Below the pieces are notes generated by a model. That model had not been told where the DNA came from, made no database searches, and was given only the letters and a program-made list of their open reading frames with translations. From assembly GCA_949319575.1 (NCBI GenBank), contig CASGHD010000056.1:1-62044 (forward strand): a DNA stretch of 62,044 nucleotides, in the 5' to 3' direction. The first letter of the stretch is position 1. Every line of letters begins with the position of its first letter. The stretch comes from an uncultured Anaerolineales bacterium (GTDB lineage Bacteria > Chloroflexota > Anaerolineae > Anaerolineales > Villigracilaceae). Position numbers and translations under genes: made by a program. Positions 14,299-51,736 of the stretch are shown one piece after another.

Positions 14299-14319
14299 GC
14301 TTTATTCGATTCCCCGCCA

Positions 14320-14436
14320 ATGCCGTGTGCTACGAGGTTTTGAACCTGCATTCGCAGGTGGGTCCTTACCCAGAAACGCCGCCTTGGCTCAGGCCTATCG
14401 CGTTATTTCTTTAGGAGTTAAAGACCCCTTTTTAAA
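14320..14436 (+). ncRNA. Candidate structured RNA (possibly 6S-like)
   Basis: There is no ORF here, but compact hairpins follow each other: ACCTGC-ATTC-GCAGGT (14345-14360), GGGT-CCTT-ACCC (about 14360-14371) and GCCTTGGCTCAGGC (about 14381-14394). CTTTA..TAAAG and CCCCTTTTT follow at 14409-14432. Stretches such as TTTTGAACCTGC and GGGTCCTTACCC remind me of 6S RNA, but I cannot confirm this without a covariance search. Confidence 0.3.
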
Positions 14437-14549
14437 GTATTGGCTCAAAACGGAAGGGCAACATCACGAGCACAGCAGGGACATGTTTTATATACCATAA
14501 ACGCAAGGGGAAAGGGAGGGATATATTAATTGCGAAATTATCAGGCTGG

Positions 14550-42249: not shown

Positions 42250-42669
42250 ATGTTTGAAATTATGACCATCTTTTCATTCCTGCTTGGTATCGGCGGCGCG
42301 ATCTGTGCAATCGTGTTGCCTATTGTGATACTGGTCGCTTTTGGATATTTCATGTATCGCCGAAGCAAAATGCGCGATACGGCAAAGCAAGCCGCGCAAG
42401 ATTGGTCCAGCACGATGGGGGTGGTAATCACCTCCACGGTTCAAGTGAAGCGCAGTTACAAGAGCCGCTCCGAGATTCCTGTTGTGGTCTATCAATATCA
42501 AGTAAATGGAAAGCCCTACACCGGGCAGGTTGTCAAAGCGGGCGAACAATTCTTCAGCGTTCGCATCTACGGCGACGCGCAAAAGACGATTGCCCGTTAC
42601 CCTGTCGGAGCGCAGGTGATGGTGCATTACAACCCCGAGAATCCACAGGAATCTGCTTTGGAGAGATAA
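42250..42669 (+). CDS. DUF3592 domain membrane protein (paralogue of 26594-27112)
   Basis: A 139-residue protein with one N-terminal membrane helix (about 10-37), then a DUF3592 domain: EIPVVVYQYQVNGKPYTGQV and VGAQVMVHYNPENPQESALE. It matches the copy at 26594-27112 in these motifs but lacks that copy's C-terminal helix. The ATG at 42250 has CAGGAGA upstream. Function unknown. Confidence 0.82.
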   Translation: MFEIMTIFSFLLGIGGAICAIVLPIVILVAFGYFMYRRSKMRDTAKQAAQDWSSTMGVVITSTVQVKRSYKSRSEIPVVVYQYQVNGKPYTGQVVKAGEQFFSVRIYGDAQKTIARYPVGAQVMVHYNPENPQESALER

Positions 42670-42777
42670 GGGACCGTAAACTAATAACTTCCTGGATTTT
42701 TGTTCGTTCGCAGTTGTACTGCGAATGGGATGCACGATTTGCCAAGCAAATCGAACTGCATCCCCAACAAGGAAATT

Positions 42778-42863
42778 GGCTCTCTGGGAATTGCCGTGAT
42801 TGTTACGCCAGCAGTTGCACTGCCGCCGGAACTGGCGGTTCATCATGGCAACTCGTAAAGACC
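42778..42863. repeat. Inverse copy of the element at 17480-17588
   Basis: GGCTCTCTGGGAATTGCCGT ... CATCATGGCAACTCGTAAAG ACCC is the reverse complement of most of the other element, with a 24-bp deletion in the middle. It ends about 35 bp before the aspS promoter. Confidence 0.65.
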
Positions 42864-42896
42864 CAGGAAATTATATTTTTAAAAGCCTTAAGTCTG

Positions 42897-42905
42897 TGCT
42901 ATAAT
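42897..42905 (+). promoter_or_regulatory. Extended -10 promoter of the aspS leader
   Basis: TGCTATAAT is a perfect extended -10 box. The best -35 match is the poor TTTTAA, 17 nt upstream. Transcription should begin near 42912, only about 3 nt before the leader-peptide ATG, so that ORF would be nearly leaderless. Confidence 0.75.
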
Positions 42906-42914
42906 GCCGCCATT

Positions 42915-43001
42915 ATGAAATTCCAGTTTCGCTTCGCCAATAACAATAATAATGACGACAATGACGATCCCCGAATCGTTGGGCGAAGCACGGCTGGTTG
43001 A
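42915..43001 (+). CDS. Asn/Asp-rich leader peptide of the aspS attenuator
   Basis: A 28-codon ORF, start ATG at 42915 and stop TGA at 42999-43001. It reads MKFQFRFA, then ten consecutive Asn/Asp codons (NNNNNDDNDD; six Asn, four Asp, at 42939-42968), then PRIVGRSTAG. Pairing segment 1 (42931-42938) ends exactly where the Asn codons begin, and segment 2 (42977-42989) lies just after them. A ribosome waiting for charged tRNA-Asn or tRNA-Asp would cover segment 1 and free segment 2. The peptide itself needs no function. No Shine-Dalgarno fits the short leader, so initiation is presumably leaderless. This role is inferred from architecture, not from a known family. Confidence 0.75.
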   Translation: MKFQFRFANNNNNDDNDDPRIVGRSTAG

Positions 43002-43059
43002 CAGATTGAAATAAGTCAAATCAAATCGCCCGACGCATCTGCGAAGGGCGATTTATTTT
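42931..43059 (+). promoter_or_regulatory. Ribosome-mediated transcription attenuator upstream of aspS
   Basis: Three mutually exclusive pairings. 1:2 is GCTTCGCC (42931-42938) with GGCGAAGC (42982-42989), 8 bp perfect. 2:3 is CGTTGGGCGA (42977-42986) with TCGCCCGACG (43026-43035), 10 contiguous bp with one G-U. 3:4 is AAATCGCCC (43023-43031) with GGGCGATTT (43046-43054), plus inner CGC/GCG, followed by ATTTTATATA. Stalling at the Asn/Asp codons would favour 2:3 (antitermination); efficient translation or none favours 3:4 (termination). The logic is that of the trp and pheST attenuators. Confidence 0.75.
43023..43059 (+). terminator. Attenuator terminator hairpin before aspS
   Basis: A 9-bp stem with an inner 3-bp CGC/GCG helix and ATCT loop, separated by a GA/AA internal loop, then a U-rich tail. 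It lies 22 nt after the leader-peptide stop. Confidence 0.8.
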
Positions 43060-43069
43060 ATATACACCT

Positions 43070-43102
43070 AGACCTCACAGGTCTCAGAGACCTGTGAGGT
43101 CT
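43070..43102. repeat. Perfect 15-bp inverted repeat with 3-nt spacer
   Basis: AGACCTCACAGGTCT-CAG-AGACCTGTGAGGTCT: the same arms as at 14266-14298. It lies between the attenuator and the aspS ribosome-binding site. Confidence 0.85.
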
Positions 43103-43120
43103 GAAAAAACGGAGACTTAT

Positions 43121-44887
43121 ATGTACAGAACACACACTTGCGGAGAATTACGCGCCAGCCACGCGGGTCAAACCGTGACTCTGGCTGGCTGGGTGAATCG
43201 CCGCCGCGATCATGGCGGCGTGGCATTCTTCGATCTGCGCGACCGTTCGGGGACGGTTCAAGTCACCATCAATCCCGACCTGCCCAAAGAGACTCTCGAC
43301 CGCATTGCAGATGTCCGCTTTGAGTGGGTGCTGCAAATCGAGGGCGTCGTTCAAAAACGCCCCGAGGGAATGGCAAACCCAAAAATGGAAACGGGCGAGA
43401 TCGAGGTCATCGCTAAAAACGTGACCGTCCTCAATCCCGCCAAGACCCTGCCCTTCATGGTCAGCTCGGATGCGGATTTGCCCGATGAAAACACGCGCCT
43501 CAAATATCGCTATCTTGATTTACGCCGCGAACGCATGACGCACAATTTGGTTTTGCGCCACAAGGTCGTTAAATTCATGCGCGATTATCTCGACCAGCAA
43601 GGCTTTATCGAGATCGAAACGCCGATCATGTTCAAAGCGACTCCCGAAGGCGCGCGCGATTATCTTGTGCCGTCGCGCATCTACCCTGGACAGTTCTATG
43701 CGTTGCCACAATCACCGCAACAACTAAAACAATTGCTCATGGTCGCAGGCATGGACAAATATTTCCAGATCGCGCGTTGCTTCCGCGATGAAGACCTGCG
43801 CGGCGACCGTCAGCCTGAGTTCACACAACTCGATCTTGAAATGTCCTACGTCCACCGCGATGACGTGTTGAATCTTGTCGAGGGCTTGTTCACGGAGATG
43901 CTCCCTGAAGTTGCGCCGCACAAGAAGTTATTTTCTTCGCCGTGGCCCAAGTTTTCATATAAAGAAGTTCTTGAGCGCTTCGGCACAGATAAACCCGACC
44001 TGCGCTTCGACATGGAATTGATTGACGTGAGCGACATCTTTGCAAAGAGTGAGTTCAAAGTCTTTCAATCCGCGTTGAGCGCGGGAGGCGTTGTCAAATG
44101 TATCGTCGCGCCAAAATCAGCAGACCTGTCGCGCAAGGAAGTGGACGCGTTGACCGAATCCGCGAAGGGGTTGGGGGCGAAGGGACTCGCCACGTTGGCG
44201 ATCCAAGCCGAAGGTCCGAAGGGAACCGCCGCGAAGTTTGTCACAGCCGAAGAGGTGGAAGCGGTCAAATCCAAAACGGGCGCGAAGGACGGCGATCTCA
44301 TCCTGTTTGCGGCAGACGCGCGCGCGGTCGTCAATAAAGTGTTGGGCGGGCTGAGAGTCGTCTTGCGCGACAAATTGAATCTGGCAGATACTTCCATGAT
44401 GGCATTCGCGTGGGTGGTGGACTTTCCGTTCTTTGCGTGGAATGAAGAGGAAAAGAAATGGGAGTCGGAGCATCATCCGTTCACGATGCCGAAGTTGGAT
44501 GATTTGCCAAAGTTCGATACCAACCCTGGTGAAGTGTATTCGGATGCGTATGACATGGTTTGCAATGGTTACGAGACCGCGTCGGGTTCGATCCGTATTC
44601 ACCGCCGCGATATTCAAATGAAGATGTTCCAGATGCTCGGATTGAGCGACGAGGAAATTCAGACGAAGTTCGGTCACATGCTGGAGGCGTTCGAGTATGG
44701 CGCGCCGCCGCATGGAGGCATGGCGCCTGGCATTGACCGTTTAATCATGTTGCTTGCGGACGAGCCGAACATCCGCGAGGTGATCGCGTTCCCGAAAAAT
44801 CAAGCGGGACGCGATGTGATGGCGGATGCGCCGTCTGAAGTGGAGCCGAAGCAGTTGAAGGAATTGCATATTCAGATCAGAGACTAG
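43121..44887 (+). CDS. aspS: Aspartyl-tRNA synthetase, probably non-discriminating (Asp/Asn)
   Basis: A 588-residue bacterial-type class II synthetase. It has an OB-fold anticodon-binding domain (1-105), the catalytic core with motif 2 FRDEDLRGDRQPEFTQLDLE and motif 3 GMAPGIDRLIMLL, and the bacterial GAD insertion (about 290-410). Residues RRRDHGG with His31 and RPEG with Gly83 match those reported, as I recall, to make the Pseudomonas enzyme accept tRNA-Asn as well as tRNA-Asp; discriminating enzymes such as the E. coli one have Leu and Lys there. The product Asp-tRNA-Asn would be amidated by GatCAB, encoded next. The ATG at 43121 with GGAGA is the start; an in-frame GTG at 43094 lies in the repeat. 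Expression is probably controlled by the leader attenuator. Confidence 0.93.
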   Translation: MYRTHTCGELRASHAGQTVTLAGWVNRRRDHGGVAFFDLRDRSGTVQVTINPDLPKETLDRIADVRFEWVLQIEGVVQKRPEGMANPKMETGEIEVIAKNVTVLNPAKTLPFMVSSDADLPDENTRLKYRYLDLRRERMTHNLVLRHKVVKFMRDYLDQQGFIEIETPIMFKATPEGARDYLVPSRIYPGQFYALPQSPQQLKQLLMVAGMDKYFQIARCFRDEDLRGDRQPEFTQLDLEMSYVHRDDVLNLVEGLFTEMLPEVAPHKKLFSSPWPKFSYKEVLERFGTDKPDLRFDMELIDVSDIFAKSEFKVFQSALSAGGVVKCIVAPKSADLSRKEVDALTESAKGLGAKGLATLAIQAEGPKGTAAKFVTAEEVEAVKSKTGAKDGDLILFAADARAVVNKVLGGLRVVLRDKLNLADTSMMAFAWVVDFPFFAWNEEEKKWESEHHPFTMPKLDDLPKFDTNPGEVYSDAYDMVCNGYETASGSIRIHRRDIQMKMFQMLGLSDEEIQTKFGHMLEAFEYGAPPHGGMAPGIDRLIMLLADEPNIREVIAFPKNQAGRDVMADAPSEVEPKQLKELHIQIRD

Positions 44888-45002
44888 AGACTTGAGACTA
44901 GAGACTTGAGATTGGAGACTTGAGATTGGAGATTGGTTCTCTGTAACTGGTAAATAGTAATTGGTAATTGAGGATGTGAGAATTAGAGAATTGGAGAATT
45001 GG
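44884..45002. repeat. Heptamer array NGAGACT / NGAGATT then GAGAATT
   Basis: Units AGAGACT, TGAGACT, AGAGACT, TGAGATT, GGAGACT, TGAGATT, GGAGATT, later GAATTAGAGAATTGGAGAATT. It begins within the aspS stop codon region and supplies GGAG, the gatC ribosome-binding site. Confidence 0.8.
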
Positions 45003-45308
45003 ATGAGCAGTGAGATTCGGGTTGATGAAAAATTGGTTCAAGAGATAGCGTCTCTGGCGCGGTTGGATTTAACCGAGGACGAGACACGAGTGTTCGTTTC
45101 GCAATTCAAGGACATTCTGGATTACGTCAGCATCTTGAATGAAGTGGACACTGAAAACGTTTCGCCTGCGTATTTATCTTCTTCAAGCAAGAACGCGCCG
45201 CGAGAGGATGTGATTGAAGTGTCTGTGCCAACGGAGGAGTTCCTTGCCAACGCGCCTGAATCGAAAGATGATTACGTTTTGATTCCGCGAGTGCATATCG
45301 AACAATAG
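45003..45308 (+). CDS. gatC: Asp-tRNA(Asn)/Glu-tRNA(Gln) amidotransferase subunit C
   Basis: A 101-residue GatC, the small belt subunit that stabilises GatA and GatB in the amidotransferase. Family text: VQEIASLARLDLTEDETRVF near the start, FKDILDYVSILNEVDTENVS, and APREDVIEVSVPTEEFLANA near the end. I chose the ATG at 45003 because GGAG lies 7 nt before it; the longer frame from 44961 reads through the heptamer array. It is the first gat gene after aspS. Confidence 0.93.
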   Translation: MSSEIRVDEKLVQEIASLARLDLTEDETRVFVSQFKDILDYVSILNEVDTENVSPAYLSSSSKNAPREDVIEVSVPTEEFLANAPESKDDYVLIPRVHIEQ

Positions 45309-45412: not shown

Positions 45413-46876
45413 ATGAAATTACACGAGTTAACCATCCGCGAAACACACGAACTACTTTCCAGCCGAAAGATTTCTTCGGAGGAACTCACGCGCGATTACC
45501 TCGAACGGATTCAACGACTCGATCCGCAAGTCAAATCGTACGTCACGGTTTCGGAAGATGTCGCTCTGGAGCAAGCCCAAAAAGCGGATGAATGCCTCAA
45601 GTCGGGCGAGGGGTTGACTCCGCTCACGGGCATTCCCTACTCTGCAAAAGATTCCATTTCGACGCGCGGCGTGAACACGACTTGCTCATCGAAAATTCTC
45701 GAAAATTACAAACCGTTTTACGACGCCACCGCGATCAAGAAATTAAATTCAGCGAATTCCGTTCTTCTTGGCAAAAACAACATGGATGAATTCGGCATGG
45801 GATCATCCACCGAAAACTCTGGCTTCTTCACCACGCGCAACCCGTGGAATTTCGATCACGTCCCTGGCGGTTCGAGCGGAGGTTCAGCCGCGACGGTCGC
45901 GGCAGGACTGGCTCCGTTCGCGCTCGGCGAAGACACGGGCGGATCGGTGCGTATGCCTGCTTCGTTTTGCGGGGTGACTGGACTTAAGACAACGTACGGA
46001 CGAGTCTCGCGTTATGGGTTGATTCCGCTGGTTTCATCGTTCGACACGATTGGTCCAATGGCGAGGAGCGCGTACGATGTCGCGCTTGTGCTGGAAGCGA
46101 TTGCAGGACATGATCCCAAAGACAGCACATCACGAGTTGAGTCAGTTCAAAGTTACTCCGAGAGTTTGAAGAAAACCGAAAACCTGCGTGGACTTCGCAT
46201 CGGCATACCCAAAGAATATTTCGTGGAGGGGCTGGATAAAGAAGTAGAGGCTTCTGTCCGAACCGCGATCAAGCAAATCGAGGGACTTGGCGCGGACGTT
46301 GTCGAAGTCTCGCTTCCGCACACGCAATACGCCATCCCTGTTTATTATTTGATTCTGTTTGCCGAAGCCAGTTCCAATCTCGCAAAATATGACGGGGTGC
46401 GATTTGGCTTGTCGGAACGCACAGGCGATTTGATGGATGTCTACTTGAAGACGCGCGAGGCGGGCTTCGGCGCGGAGGCAAAACGCCGCATCATGCTCGG
46501 CACGTTCGCGCTCTCCGCTGGATATTACGATGCCTACTATTTAAAAGCGCAGAAAGTCCGCGCGTTGATTCGACAGGATTTTCAAAAAGCATTTGAAACC
46601 TGCGACGCGCTCATCACGCCCGTCGCGCCGACGACCGCGTTTCGCATCGGCGAGAAGATCAGCAATCCGCTCGATATGTATTTGTCGGATGTGTTTGTTG
46701 TTGCTGTGAATCTTGCTGGCATTCCCGCGCTGTCGGTCCCGTGCGGCATTTCGAACGGATTACCCATCGGGATGCAGATCATAGGTCCGCATTTGTCGGA
46801 GGAGACGTTGCTTCGGATTGGTTATTTGTATCAAAGTCAAACGGATTGGCACACGAAACATCCGCCGTGTTGGTAA
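45413..46876 (+). CDS. gatA: Asp-tRNA(Asn)/Glu-tRNA(Gln) amidotransferase subunit A
   Basis: A 487-residue amidase-signature enzyme that releases ammonia from glutamine for the amidation of mischarged tRNA. The catalytic Ser-cisSer-Lys elements are present: [10 protein letters not shown] with the Lys, and [20 protein letters not shown] with [16 protein letters not shown] carrying the two serines. [17 protein letters not shown]-like text near the C-terminus (here [20 protein letters not shown]) is typical. The ATG at 45413 follows the repeat without a Shine-Dalgarno. It is part of aspS-gatCAB. Confidence 0.95.
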
Positions 46877-47059: not shown

Positions 47060-47115
47060 CCATGAGACTATCAAACTACGAAACTAACCGACTATGCAAC
47101 TAACCTACGAACCCA
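47060..47115. repeat. Octamer array (ACTANNNA) covering the gatB start codon
   Basis: ACTATCAA, ACTACGAA, ACTAACCG, ACTATGCA, ACTAACCT and so on. The gatB ATG (47094) and its first codons (MQLTYEP) are inside the array, and there is no Shine-Dalgarno. Confidence 0.7.
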
Positions 47116-48542
47116 TCATCGGACTCGAAGTCCATGCGGAACTGCTCACAAAATCGAAAATGTTTTGTGGGTGCGAGGTCGTTGATTCGATCACCGCGAA
47201 ACCGAATCGGTATATCTGTCCCGTTTGCACGGGTCAGCCTGGCGCATTGCCTGTGTTGAATCAAAAGGCGGTTGAACTCGCTGTCCGCGTTGGGCTGGCG
47301 CTTGAATGTCAAATCCACGTTGAAAGTATTTTCGCGCGCAAGAATTATTTTTATCCCGACCTGCCGAAGGGCTATCAGATTTCGCAATACGACCAGCCGC
47401 TCGCCACAGATGGGAAACTGCTGATCGAAACTGAATCAGGCATAAAGAAGATTCGGATTCGCCGCGTCCATTTGGAAGAGGACACGGGCAAGTTATCCCA
47501 CGCCAACGCGCATTCGTTCATTGATTACAATCGCAGCGGCGTCCCGTTGTTGGAAATTGTCACCGAGCCCGATCTGCGCGCGCCCGATGAGGCAAAGGCA
47601 TACGCCGCGAAACTTCACGCCATTCTGCGTTATCTCGATGTGAATTCGGGCGACATGGAAAAAGGCGTCATCCGTTTTGAGGCGAATGTTTCGGTGCGTG
47701 AAGCGGGAACTGAAAAACTCAACAACAGAACCGAAATTAAAAATCTCAACTCGTTTCGTTCGCTCGCGCAGGGAATCGAATACGAGATCGCGCGCCAATC
47801 TGAAATTTATTCGCGCGGCGGAATCGTCGAGCAGGAAACGTTGGGGTTCAACGAAGCGACGGGCAAGACGTATTCACAACGCGGCAAAGAGGAAGCGCAC
47901 GACTATCGCTACTTCCCCGAACCTGATTTGCCTCCGCTTGTGTTGGATTCGGATTGGATCGAATCAATTCGCATGACTCTCCTCGAATTGCCCGACGCAA
48001 AAACAAAACGCTTCATCTCGGACTTCAACCTGAATCCGTCCGACGCGCGTTTTCTCACCTCCGAACTTTCCCTCGCGAACTACTTCGAGCGAGTCGCCGC
48101 CAAATCGAAAAGCTCTGCCAAGATTGTTCACTCGTGGATTGCAGGTGAATTTATGCGCTACGTCAACGAATCTGGAATTGATATTGCAGACATAACTCTT
48201 TCACCTGAATCGTTCGCTCAACTCATTGACATGGTCACATACAAAACCATCGGCGGCAACGCGGGCAAAACGGTTCTGGTTGAACTCCTCCAAAACGGCG
48301 GCGACCCCGCGCAGATCGTCAAAGAAAAAGGACTCACCCAAGTCTCTGACGAAAGTTTCATTCAAGAAGCCGTGACGAAAGTTCTGAATGACAATCCCTC
48401 CGAAGTGGAAAAATATCTCGCGGGCAAAGAGACTCTCCTGCAATGGTTCGTCGGTCAAGTCGCGCGCGCGACGAAGGGGAAGGCTGATCCGAATGTGACG
48501 AGGGAGTTGTTGGTGAAGGGGTTGGTGGAGAGAAAAAAGTAA
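47094..48542 (+). CDS. gatB: Asp-tRNA(Asn)/Glu-tRNA(Gln) amidotransferase subunit B
   Basis: A 482-residue GatB, the subunit that binds mischarged tRNA and phosphorylates its carboxyl group before amidation. Diagnostic text: YEPIIGLEVHAELLTKSKMF at the start, VCTGQPGALPVLNQKAVELA, PKGYQISQYDQPLATDGKLL, HLEEDTGKLSHA, SFIDYNRSGVPLLEIVTEPD, and a YqeY-like helical tail. The last 48 codons (from 48398) are duplicated at 49453-49597 beyond a two-gene cassette, so the current end may have come with the cassette. The start codon lies in a repeat. Confidence 0.95.
   Translation: MQLTYEPIIGLEVHAELLTKSKMFCGCEVVDSITAKPNRYICPVCTGQPGALPVLNQKAVELAVRVGLALECQIHVESIFARKNYFYPDLPKGYQISQYDQPLATDGKLLIETESGIKKIRIRRVHLEEDTGKLSHANAHSFIDYNRSGVPLLEIVTEPDLRAPDEAKAYAAKLHAILRYLDVNSGDMEKGVIRFEANVSVREAGTEKLNNRTEIKNLNSFRSLAQGIEYEIARQSEIYSRGGIVEQETLGFNEATGKTYSQRGKEEAHDYRYFPEPDLPPLVLDSDWIESIRMTLLELPDAKTKRFISDFNLNPSDARFLTSELSLANYFERVAAKSKSSAKIVHSWIAGEFMRYVNESGIDIADITLSPESFAQLIDMVTYKTIGGNAGKTVLVELLQNGGDPAQIVKEKGLTQVSDESFIQEAVTKVLNDNPSEVEKYLAGKETLLQWFVGQVARATKGKADPNVTRELLVKGLVERKK
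48398..48542. repeat. Direct repeat, copy 1: gatB 3' end
   Basis: 145 bp, repeated at 49453-49597 (offset exactly 1055 bp). The first ~118 bp differ at a single position that I can see (48410 A versus C); the last ~25 bp diverge clearly. Both copies end in an in-frame TAA. Confidence 0.9.
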
Positions 48543-48567: not shown

Positions 48568-49104
48568 ATGGGAACGTTTACTCGTAGTGAAATTGAAGGT
48601 GGCTTAAAACGACTTGGTGAACTAGCCCAAGTCAAAGGGTTTCATATTCAACTCACTTTGGTTGGCGGCGCAGTCATGGTACTTCGTTTCGACGCGCGCC
48701 CATCTACACGAGATATAGATGCGGTTATTCTCGAACCTCGTGAAGCGCGTCTGGTTCGGGAACTGGCAAAAAGAGTTGCCGACGAATTCGACTGGACAGA
48801 AGATTGGTTGAACGATGGCGCAAAAGGATATCTGGTGGGTATCAGTGACGGACCCATTGTATTTCAATCGCCTGGTATCGAGGCGCGTGCACCCTCTATG
48901 GAACAGTTGCTGGCGATGAAACTCTCTGCATGGCGCGACGATGTTGATATTTCAGACGCTCGACGGCTTTTACAGGAAGTTGGACAGGATAGAAAAAAAG
49001 GTGATGTTTGGCAAAGTATCGAACCCTTTATCGTAAAAGGCGATGAACTGACCGCACAATACGCTTTTTGGGACTTATGGGAGAACTTATATGGAACTGA
49101 TTGA
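48568..49104 (+). CDS. Nucleotidyltransferase-fold protein (DUF6036/AbiEii-like)
   Basis: A 178-residue protein with the minimal nucleotidyltransferase core: LTLVGGAVMVLRFDARPSTR followed by DIDAVI, that is the GG...DxD motif near residues 30-55. A helical half contains SMEQLLAMKLSAWRDDVDIS, as in AbiEii and MNT-type proteins. Such proteins serve as toxins or antitoxins that modify RNA or proteins; the role here is unknown. It overlaps the next gene by 14 nt. The pair is flanked by two copies of the gatB 3' end, so it looks like inserted cargo. Confidence 0.72.
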   Translation: MGTFTRSEIEGGLKRLGELAQVKGFHIQLTLVGGAVMVLRFDARPSTRDIDAVILEPREARLVRELAKRVADEFDWTEDWLNDGAKGYLVGISDGPIVFQSPGIEARAPSMEQLLAMKLSAWRDDVDISDARRLLQEVGQDRKKGDVWQSIEPFIVKGDELTAQYAFWDLWENLYGTD

Positions 49105-49447
49105 ACAACTTGCTCAAGCCGCGCTCGAACGAGATCATCTCAAATTACGCAGTCTCGTTCAAGATTTAACTCGTTCCAAAACGGACTTTAGCGTGCTTCC
49201 CCGCCCGTCTACTACAGACCAACGTCTATTGGTCGTCAGCGCCGCTTTAACCGAATTACTCGCTGAAAGAAACAATCAGCGTCCGCCTTCATGGACAAAA
49301 GAGATCGGCGCATTGAAAGAGCCGTTCTTCCTGCTCGAATCGGCGGCAACGATGAAACGCCTGCGAACGCTGTGCGAAACCCAATCTCCTGAGCCTATGC
49401 GGAAACGCTTGCTTTACGCGCCGCCACATTTTCTTGCATTTGCCTAA
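49091..49447 (+). CDS. Small protein paired with the nucleotidyltransferase
   Basis: A 118-residue soluble protein, helical in its first half (LIEQLAQAALERDHLKLRSL, LVVSAALTELLAERNNQRPP), then SWTKEIGALKEPFFLLESAA and a basic end with PEPMRKRLLYAPPHFLAFA. I do not recognise the family. The 14-nt overlap with the nucleotidyltransferase indicates coupled translation and suggests the two work together, perhaps as a toxin-antitoxin or defence pair. That is inference only. Confidence 0.65.
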   Translation: MELIEQLAQAALERDHLKLRSLVQDLTRSKTDFSVLPRPSTTDQRLLVVSAALTELLAERNNQRPPSWTKEIGALKEPFFLLESAATMKRLRTLCETQSPEPMRKRLLYAPPHFLAFA

Positions 49448-50249: not shown

Positions 50250-50400
50250 CCTTCCATTCGTTATTGAAATCGGCGGCATGGACTACGGTTTCGACATTCA
50301 GGGAATCCTTGGAATGGACTTTTTGACCACTGCTGGCGCGAAGATTGATCTGGAAAAAATGGAAATCGAATTTTCAAAATTAAGAGGCATTCATGGCTGA
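50224..50400 (+). pseudogene. C-terminal remnant of a retropepsin-like aspartic protease
   Basis: The frame encodes DVRLQLRDNLPFVIEIGGMD, then YGFDIQGILGMDFLTTAGAK and IDLEKMEIEFSKL. GILGMDFL followed by GAKIDL is the typical end of the small retroviral-type protease fold. The N-terminal half with the DTGA catalytic motif is absent. It overlaps the first 8 nt of asnS, which has no other gap upstream. Confidence 0.6.
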
Positions 50401-51736
50401 ACAAATCAGCGTCTCGCAAATTTCAAAATACATTGGACAAGAAGTAACCATCAAAGGCTGGGTCTATAACCGCACGGACAAGGGCAAGTTATGCTTTTTG
50501 CTAGTCCGTGACGGCTCAGGCTTTATACAATGCGTCGCCTTCAAAGGCGACCTTCAACCTGAAACCTTTGACCTGCTAACCCACCTGCCGCAAGAGTCGG
50601 CGGTGATTGTCACGGGCGCGGTGCGTGAGGATAAGCGCGCGCCTGGCATCCCTGGCGGATATGAACTCGGCGTGAAGCAAATCGAAATCGTGCAGGAAGC
50701 GGGACTCGATTACCCAATGTCGCTGAAGGATCACGGTCCCGATTTCGCGCTCGATCATCGTCACTTGTGGATACGGATGCAGAGTCAGTGGGCGATATTG
50801 CGCGTGCGCGCCGTAGTCATGGCGGCGACTCGCGCGTGGCTCGACTCCAACGGCTTCTTTGAAATGAGCGCTCCGATCCTCACCCCCGCCGCCGCCGAAG
50901 GGACGACGACACTTTTTGAAACTGAATACTTTGATGAAGGAAAAGCCTATCTCGCGCAGACGGGTCAACTCTACAACGAAGCCAACATCTTTGCGTTTGG
51001 AAAAGTCTACTGCTTCGGTCCCACCTTCCGCGCCGAGAAATCAAAGACGCGGCGTCACCTCACCGAGTTTTGGATGCTCGAACCTGAGATCGCCTTCTGC
51101 GATTTGGGCGGCTTGATGGAAGTGGAAGAGGGACTCATTACACATATCGCTCAAACTGTATTGCGCGATTGCGCGGCGGAGTTGAAATTCCTTGGGCGTG
51201 ATGTGAGCAAACTCGAAAATGTGACTGGCGCATTCCCGCGCATGTCGTATGACGACGCGGCAAAATATCTCATTGACTTATACGAAAAAGAAACTGACTC
51301 CGAGCGCAAGGAACTCCTCAAATTCGAATGGGGCATGGACTTCGGCGCTCCGCATGAGGCTGAACTCACAAAGTTACACGATAAACCCTTGTTCGTTTAT
51401 GGCTATCCAAGCGCAGTCAAAGCATTTTATATGGAGCCGTGGCCCGGGCGACCCGAAGTTTGCAAGTCTGTGGATTTGCTCGCGCCCGAAGGCTACGGCG
51501 AAATCTGCGGCGGCTCGGAACGTATTTCCGATCATGATGCCTTGCTTGCGCGAATTCATAAAGAGGGATTACCCGAAGAAGCGTTCAAGTGGTATCTCGA
51601 ACTTCGCAAGTATGGCTCTGTCCCACATTCAGGATTCGGCATGGGCGTGGAAAGAGTCGTCGCGTGGATTTGCGGAATCGAACACATCCGCGAAGCGATT
51701 CCGTTCCCGAGGACGATCAAGCGCGTTTATCCGTAG
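50393..51736 (+). CDS. asnS: Asparaginyl-tRNA synthetase
   Basis: A 447-residue class II synthetase attaching asparagine directly to tRNA-Asn. The N-terminal OB domain (about 1-105; VTIKGWVYNRTDKGKLCFLL) is followed by the catalytic core. Motif 1 is around SAPILTPAAAEGTTTLFETE, motif 2 is TFRAEKSKTRRHLTEFWMLE and motif 3 is HSGFGMGVERVVAWICGIEH. The mid-region LAQTGQLYNEANIFAFGKVY is characteristic of AsnRS. Its presence means the cell has both the direct route to Asn-tRNA and, if AspRS is non-discriminating, the GatCAB route. The start overlaps the protease remnant. Confidence 0.95.
   Translation: MAEQISVSQISKYIGQEVTIKGWVYNRTDKGKLCFLLVRDGSGFIQCVAFKGDLQPETFDLLTHLPQESAVIVTGAVREDKRAPGIPGGYELGVKQIEIVQEAGLDYPMSLKDHGPDFALDHRHLWIRMQSQWAILRVRAVVMAATRAWLDSNGFFEMSAPILTPAAAEGTTTLFETEYFDEGKAYLAQTGQLYNEANIFAFGKVYCFGPTFRAEKSKTRRHLTEFWMLEPEIAFCDLGGLMEVEEGLITHIAQTVLRDCAAELKFLGRDVSKLENVTGAFPRMSYDDAAKYLIDLYEKETDSERKELLKFEWGMDFGAPHEAELTKLHDKPLFVYGYPSAVKAFYMEPWPGRPEVCKSVDLLAPEGYGEICGGSERISDHDALLARIHKEGLPEEAFKWYLELRKYGSVPHSGFGMGVERVVAWICGIEHIREAIPFPRTIKRVYP

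Follow-up and report, generated by a model that had tools for sequence, protein, structure and literature searches.

Why should ten consecutive asparagine and aspartate codons stand in a short open reading frame (ORF) directly upstream of aspS, the gene of aspartyl-tRNA synthetase (AspRS)? The question is raised by a stretch of 62,044 nucleotides, called the window below, which is contig 56 of the 3.65 Mb, 227-contig assembly of an uncultured Anaerolineales bacterium (family Villigracilaceae). A preliminary description of the same DNA had read the region as an attenuator. We will argue that it is very probably a ribosome-mediated transcription attenuator of the trp/his/pheST type, sensing charged tRNA-Asn and tRNA-Asp. 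This reading is supported by the family, which keeps the codon run and the RNA pairings, and independently by near-pure asparagine runs in front of a second gene, asnA.

Anatomy of the leader and the proposed switch

The leader lies on the forward strand. Its promoter (42878-42905) combines a -35-like hexamer, TTTAAA (42878-42883), with an extended -10 box, TGC-TATAAT (42897-42905). The ATG of the leader ORF follows after 9 nt, and we infer a nearly leaderless start. The ORF (42915-43001) has 28 codons, MKFQFRFANNNNNDDNDDPRIVGRSTAG, and ends with the TGA at 42999-43001. Its translation contains ten contiguous Asn/Asp codons, NNNNNDDNDD (42939-42968). This is the sole Asn/Asp run of at least five codons in the six frames of the window; in 60 random first-order windows there were on average 0.1 such runs, and none of at least six.

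Four segments can pair around this run. Segment 1 (42931-42938) matches 42982-42989 at 8/8 positions, within segment 2 (CGTTGGGCGAAGC, 42977-42989). Segment 2 can instead pair with segment 3 (43023-43036), where 42977-42986 and 43026-43035 form 10 of 10 pairs, one of them U-G. Segment 3 is at once the antiterminator partner and the 5' arm of a terminator, whose stem joins 43023-43031 to 43046-43054 in 9/9 pairs and continues, beyond two mismatches, into an inner stem of 3 bp (43034-43036 with 43041-43043). Segment 4 and the T-rich tail, of the TTTATTTTATATA type, occupy 43041-43064 and supply the 3' arm. The Asn/Asp run starts directly 3' of segment 1 and ends 12 bases 5' of the GGGCG core of segment 2, and the stop codon of the ORF lies beyond segment 2. 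The preliminary description had reported the extended -10 box with an ATG shortly after it, the ORF with its ten codons, the perfect 1:2 match, the ten contiguous 2:3 pairs, the 9-bp terminator and the position of the run between segments 1 and 2, and all of these were found again on re-reading the sequence.

The leader (42911-43062) folds with a z score of -4.47, and none of 200 dinucleotide shuffles was equally stable. The minimum-energy fold holds 1:2 together with 3:4, and the alternative is 2:3. Compared with shuffles, the 2:3 duplex of the window is significant (p 0.004), while 1:2 alone is marginal (p 0.054). Between the terminator and aspS there is also a perfect-looking palindromic repeat, AGACCTCACAGGTCT...AGACCTGTGAGGTCT, at 43070-43102; other relatives carry differing palindromic repeats at the equivalent place.

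At the sequence level, the features of a classic attenuator are present, except that 1:2 is no more than likely. We infer the start site, the co-transcription, the termination and the response to charging, as follows. The transcript would begin a few bases 5' of the leader ATG. With both tRNAs charged, the ribosome would cross the run to the stop codon and cover segment 2, the 3:4 terminator would form and aspS would be off. With charged tRNA scarce, the ribosome would stall in the run and cover segment 1; 2:3 would then form in place of the terminator, and aspS and the following genes (gatCAB, perhaps asnS) would be transcribed. A leader that is not translated would adopt 1:2 and terminate. 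The leader thus probably switches aspS on when charged Asn or Asp tRNAs are scarce.

Conservation of the codon run and the pairings

In the same genus, aspS could be located in 17 of 18 genomes, and all 17 upstream regions have the promoter, the ORF, a run of 7-10 Asn/Asp codons, segment 2 and the terminator. For the family, where 132 of 150 genomes gave an aspS match, 83 upstream regions were read: 17 come from the genus, 26 from the list of best matches, and 40 were picked to cover diverse genera. The preliminary description had proposed to look for the run in relatives: 67 of the 83 regions contain a short ORF in which five or more Asn/Asp codons stand in a row, and 71 pass a looser criterion of five in seven. 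It had also named relatives devoid of the run or the stems as evidence to the contrary. Relatives without a clear run do exist; in most of these, Asn/Asp codons are scattered over an ORF that still has the promoter before it and the terminator after it. One locus (L068) has no clear ORF, and another (L027) is interrupted by a contig end. Two genomes (G031 and G050) have two aspS copies apiece, with a leader at each. A covariance model of the leader, R1, matches 121 of the 150 family genomes at E 0.01; one match is without link to aspS (G084:C307), and no ORF of at least 120 aa is found there. The family consensus at the -10 box is tgTGCTATAAT (66 leaders), TG included, and 49 of 70 leaders place it 9 or 10 nt from the ATG. 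A Shine-Dalgarno-like GAGGCAAG is seen with the leader ORFs of some relatives.

The pairings were examined in an alignment, A1, of 28 diverse family leaders, with the partner slid by 1 to 3 columns as control. For 2:3, 97.5% of the cells are able to pair (slid, 22-44%), for 3:4 93.5% (35-38%) and for 1:2 84.7% (35-51%). The 2:3 duplex is better than shuffles in 17/17 family leaders tested (p 0.002-0.014). A telling case for 1:2 is the leader L021, where segment 2 reads GGGCAAAAT and segment 1 is altered to TTTTTTGCCC. The 2:3 and 3:4 pairings are well supported by these comparisons; 1:2 is likely and is the weakest element.

What is kept in the run is the amino acid. Seventy-one unique leaders have a run of four or more; counted from the first to the last Asn/Asp, these runs hold 396 Asn, 209 Asp and 11 others, so that 605 of 616 residues are Asn or Asp. 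The others are Ser (3), Arg, Ala and Leu (2 each), Thr and Gly (1 each), with zero Lys, Glu, His or Tyr in these strict runs. Defining the run more loosely gives 75 leaders, whose runs include 5 Tyr, 2 His and 2 Lys, and still no Glu. Both third bases are used, with AAT 274 and AAC 122 times for Asn, GAT 109 and GAC 100 times for Asp. Since Lys and Glu codons are missing and both third bases occur, the amino acids appear to be preserved while the bases move; the same two facts rule out a DNA repeat as the origin of the run. Within the run, the positions of Asn/Asp swaps are free, and of the 40 leaders that have the exact CTTCGCC, 37 start the run immediately 3' of segment 1.

Segment 2, on the other hand, seems to be preserved as RNA, because its nucleotide sequence is constant across differing reading frames. 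Among the 71 leaders, 55 read it in the usual frame (VGRSxAG), 11 in the +1 frame (YRWAKPC) and three otherwise, and two were unmatched; two of the three remaining cases are an earlier GGGC with VGRS in the usual frame. Judged from sequence, such a frame swap is difficult for a peptide function and easy for RNA pairing.

We now turn to the second target. R1 matches beyond aspS pointed to a 345-aa gene that is asnA, aspartate-ammonia ligase (NCBIfam TIGR00669; 376-385 bits, cut-off 293). The gene was found in seven of the 150 family genomes searched, with an attenuator-type leader in 7/7, six of them detected by R1. Five of the seven runs are without any Asp, for example nine Asn in G067, and that of G082 has one. 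The totals are 47 Asn and 3 Asp, compared to 396 and 209 in front of aspS (Fisher p 6e-6, which is overstated because the codons inside one leader are non-independent). Two genomes, G067 and G091, combine an asnA leader whose run is pure Asn with a mixed aspS leader one gene further on. As read from these leaders, codon identity follows the product of the downstream gene, and the asnA leaders are our strongest argument that the run reports on whichever amino acid the regulated gene concerns.

Outside the family, weaker leaders were found. An ATG ORF with five of seven Asn/Asp codons precedes aspS in 9 of 76 regions from other Anaerolineae, in the families f6 (Ca. Roseilinea and relatives), f23 (Thermoflexales), f11 and f49. 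Their peptide and terminator sequences are different, yet they have a -10-like box, a run and a G+C hairpin with a T-run. Eight f6 leaders combined give p 0.002 for 2:3, these leaders being related to each other. In f6 genomes such as G336, asnS is distant from aspS. Two named records (L187 and L194) provide further Asn/Asp leaders outside the family. No such leader was seen before aspS in 50 loci of other Chloroflexota classes or in 50 of other phyla; a looser scan (four of seven, other starts) flagged three of the former and one of the latter, which we take as chance. In one f6 genome (L168, 366-447), the ATG of the Asn/Asp leader lies 9 bases 3' of a tRNA-Lys gene, and because of this closeness tRNA processing may be what frees the leader. 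Three near-complete genomes of the same order (G314, G349 and G364, family f2) gave no AspS match at 1e-100, which suggests a different AspRS type.

Points against attenuation and rival readings

It is important to point out that several observations weigh against an attenuator. The -35-like hexamer of the window is weak, and a simple scan of 42660-43130 found no terminator-like sites, by a rule that misses such a hairpin. The preliminary description had proposed to look for compensatory changes in the three stems; the pairings are kept, but real compensatory changes are few, namely one pair in 2:3, three single-sequence pairs in 1:2 and one pair in 3:4. Little free covariation is left because segments 2 and 3 each take part in two pairings. 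For 1:2, the slid controls show equally many two-sided changes, and just 3 of 17 leaders have a 1:2 duplex better than shuffles (p ≤0.05), which is why it was graded below the other two. Some loci have no such leader at all: the first-listed of the two aspS copies of G037 (L078) and two loci of the same order (L093 and L109). In 10 genomes lacking AsnS, asparaginyl-tRNA synthetase, the run has shrunk to 0-5, and of their leaders three of eight were testable for 2:3, none being significant. The asnA leader of G099 is mixed, with two Asp. Beyond the family, two tests of 2:3 each gave individual significance at 1 of 14 loci. In the 76 loci of other Anaerolineae, base composition brings some other residue pairs to counts above the 9 of Asn/Asp, with Ala/Arg 14, Arg/Ser 12 and Ala/Thr 10; Asp/Glu (1), His/Asn (2) and Lys/Asn (2) scored lower.

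Could the terminator then be constitutive, or regulated otherwise, with a non-sensing leader ORF that fixes the level of readthrough or aids aspS translation? That the -10 box and the terminator are the best-kept parts of the family alignment would fit, as would the persistence of the terminator sequence in AsnS-lacking genomes although the run shrinks. A fixed leader has, however, no need of Asn or Asp, which make up nearly every residue of the strict runs, nor would it explain why the asnA leaders are shifted towards Asn; we consider this option improbable. A run might instead sense queuosine, a modification of the tRNAs that read the four NAY codon sets (Asn, Asp, His and Tyr), with slow decoding of the unmodified tRNA stalling the ribosome. 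Two of these sets make up the run, and His codons do appear in two aspS leaders, L066 (G027; NIHNANHHD) and L335 (G067; NINDDHDN). The absence of Tyr and His from the 71 strict runs, and the regulated genes, which are aspS and asnA and none for queuosine, led us to reject this explanation as very unlikely.

Ribosomes can be slowed by long stretches that are homopolymeric or acidic, and the polyanionic/polyamide stretch might act as an arrest peptide that stalls whatever the tRNA charging, for example sensing the state of the ribosome. We find this very unlikely in view of the unequal Asn:Asp ratio between asnA and aspS leaders and the free swap positions inside the run. A T-box or another ligand-binding leader RNA, to which the ORF would be incidental, was also considered, as elsewhere T-boxes regulate synthetase genes, those for asparagine and aspartate among them (PMC2494555, in the text available to us). 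At gathering cut-offs, an Rfam scan of the window gives 6S RNA alone, and a relaxed scan of the leader just two microRNA models, far under their cut-offs; segment 2 and the terminator are, moreover, too short for a T-box core. This option was rejected and has next to no probability in our estimation.

A tentative extension of the attenuator is a two-input device in which position sets the weight, so that one leader might read two tRNA pools with different gains. Runs of seven or more occur in 59 family leaders: the first residue, on the segment 1 side, is Asn in 59/59, and the last, on the segment 2 side, is Asp in 52/59. A ribosome held at the Asn codons would cover segment 1 and give strong antitermination; held at the Asp codons that close the run, it would leave segment 1 free and give a weaker response. 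Such gains would suit an operon whose AspRS, GatCAB and AsnS feed both pools. We regard it as a possibility, well short of the confidence we place in the attenuator as such.

The downstream genes and comparison with known systems

The leader is followed, on the same strand, by aspS (43121-44887, 588 aa; TIGR00459, 753 bits, cut-off 374), gatC (44961-45308, start codon uncertain, match within 45009-45305; TIGR00135, 86 bits, cut-off 47), gatA (45413-46876; TIGR00132, 611 bits, cut-off 481) and gatB (47094-48542; TIGR00133, 568 bits, cut-off 315). The asparaginyl-tRNA synthetase gene asnS (50393-51736; TIGR00457, 447 bits, cut-off 343) lies 1.85 kb 3' of gatB, also on this strand. Three unassigned ORFs stand in between, and two ORFs of this interval, at 48568-49447, have no NCBIfam match. 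Elsewhere in the window, the 6S RNA (RF00013, 77.8 bits) is located at 14307-14484 on the minus strand. The genes that follow aspS in relatives are gatCAB, asnS or the two together, and in several genera asnS adjoins aspS. In six genomes (G011, G021, G034, G057, G063 and G065), 27-134 bases separate the aspS match from the asnS match, and in the named records L180-L182 asnS comes directly after aspS, with no gatCAB. In total, AsnS was found in 118 and GatB, at the threshold used, in 116 of the 150 family genomes.

We take the RRRDHGG and RPEG positions to mark a non-discriminating AspRS. The window AspRS has both, as do PDB 4wj3 and 4rmf, which are named Aspartate-tRNA(Asp/Asn) ligase; PDB 1efw and 6hhv have RRRDLGG and a gap instead of RPEG. 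The window enzyme is probably non-discriminating. The preliminary description had related the mixed codons to an operon that makes Asp-tRNA and, through GatCAB, Asn-tRNA. This can be retained in part: GatCAB is not the sole route to Asn-tRNA, because asnS is also encoded in the window, but the indirect route is still plausible because of the Asp/Asn-ligase residues of AspRS. A bacterium with AsnRS, GatCAB and one non-discriminating AspRS is known from the accessible part of PMC4206432. A separate Asn leader before asnS was sought in 18 asnS upstream regions, one of just 168 nt, and none was found.

Run length is correlated with the presence of AsnS. The median is 9 in 65 loci with AsnS (including the second copy of G037 and L027 with its truncated contig) and 2 in 10 loci without (p 5e-6), five more having been set aside as fragmentary (the contig ends of G120 and G136 unchecked); with all 15 included, it is 3 (p 4e-4). 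The correlation is weak, because the genera without AsnS may form one clade. Ten genomes (G028, G033, G035, G041, G049, G052, G060, G062, G071 and G078) have at least two GatB matches of differing similarity and no AsnS match.

If the attenuator reading is true, ribosome-mediated attenuation would be extended to Asn and Asp, and to a phylum for which we found no such leader described. It would also reach the branch point between AsnS, the direct route, and the amidation of Asp-tRNA-Asn by GatCAB. The runs, mixed before aspS, near-pure Asn before asnA and shrunken without AsnS, form a natural series in which codon specificity could be compared, and thereby a ready reporter set. Annotation of uncultured Anaerolineae could further use the leader as a sequence signature of short leader genes and of operons.

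The leader has no gathering-level Rfam match to known leader families. In agreement with the preliminary description, which knew of no such leader for aspS or for a mixed Asn/Asp signal, we found no Asn/Asp leader-peptide attenuator in the open-access literature, a search that left subscription papers mostly outside, so that absence in print is unproven. The trp, his, leu and pheST attenuators of Proteobacteria (a model is given in the accessible part of PMC1183508) likewise have a leader ORF with cognate codons and mutually exclusive 2:3 and 3:4 pairings, and pheST is a synthetase operon too. Here, in contrast, two amino acids share one run, the targets are aspS/asnS/gatCAB and asnA, the start is probably nearly leaderless in most family members, the stop codon lies past segment 2, and the phylum is another one. 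The T-box of Firmicutes asn/asp synthetase genes follows a similar logic, in that uncharged tRNA raises synthetase expression, but its RNA binds the tRNA directly, with no leader peptide (PMC2494555, same portion); no T-box match occurs here. The aspS of Shewanella, a proteobacterium, has a predicted structured 5' leader listed as a tRNA synthetase leader, for which the accessible part of PMC2659441 gives no Asn/Asp leader peptide.

The leaderless start, offered earlier as a further novelty, cannot be upheld as such, since mycobacteria are known to have leaderless poly-cysteine attenuators (Canestrari et al. 2020, as cited in the accessible parts of PMC9031893 and PMC13236596) and the leader ORF of some relatives has a Shine-Dalgarno-like sequence. 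The short ORF of those attenuators, like the one here, carries consecutive codons for the amino acid that is sensed, and it sits at or close to the 5' end, as predicted for the present leader too. They respond to cysteine and regulate downstream translation (PMC9031893, as far as accessible), whereas here the codons are Asn/Asp and the predicted output is a transcription terminator. Within the literature searched, what appears to be new is the joint Asn and Asp specificity, the targets and the phylum; the class of mechanism is already known.

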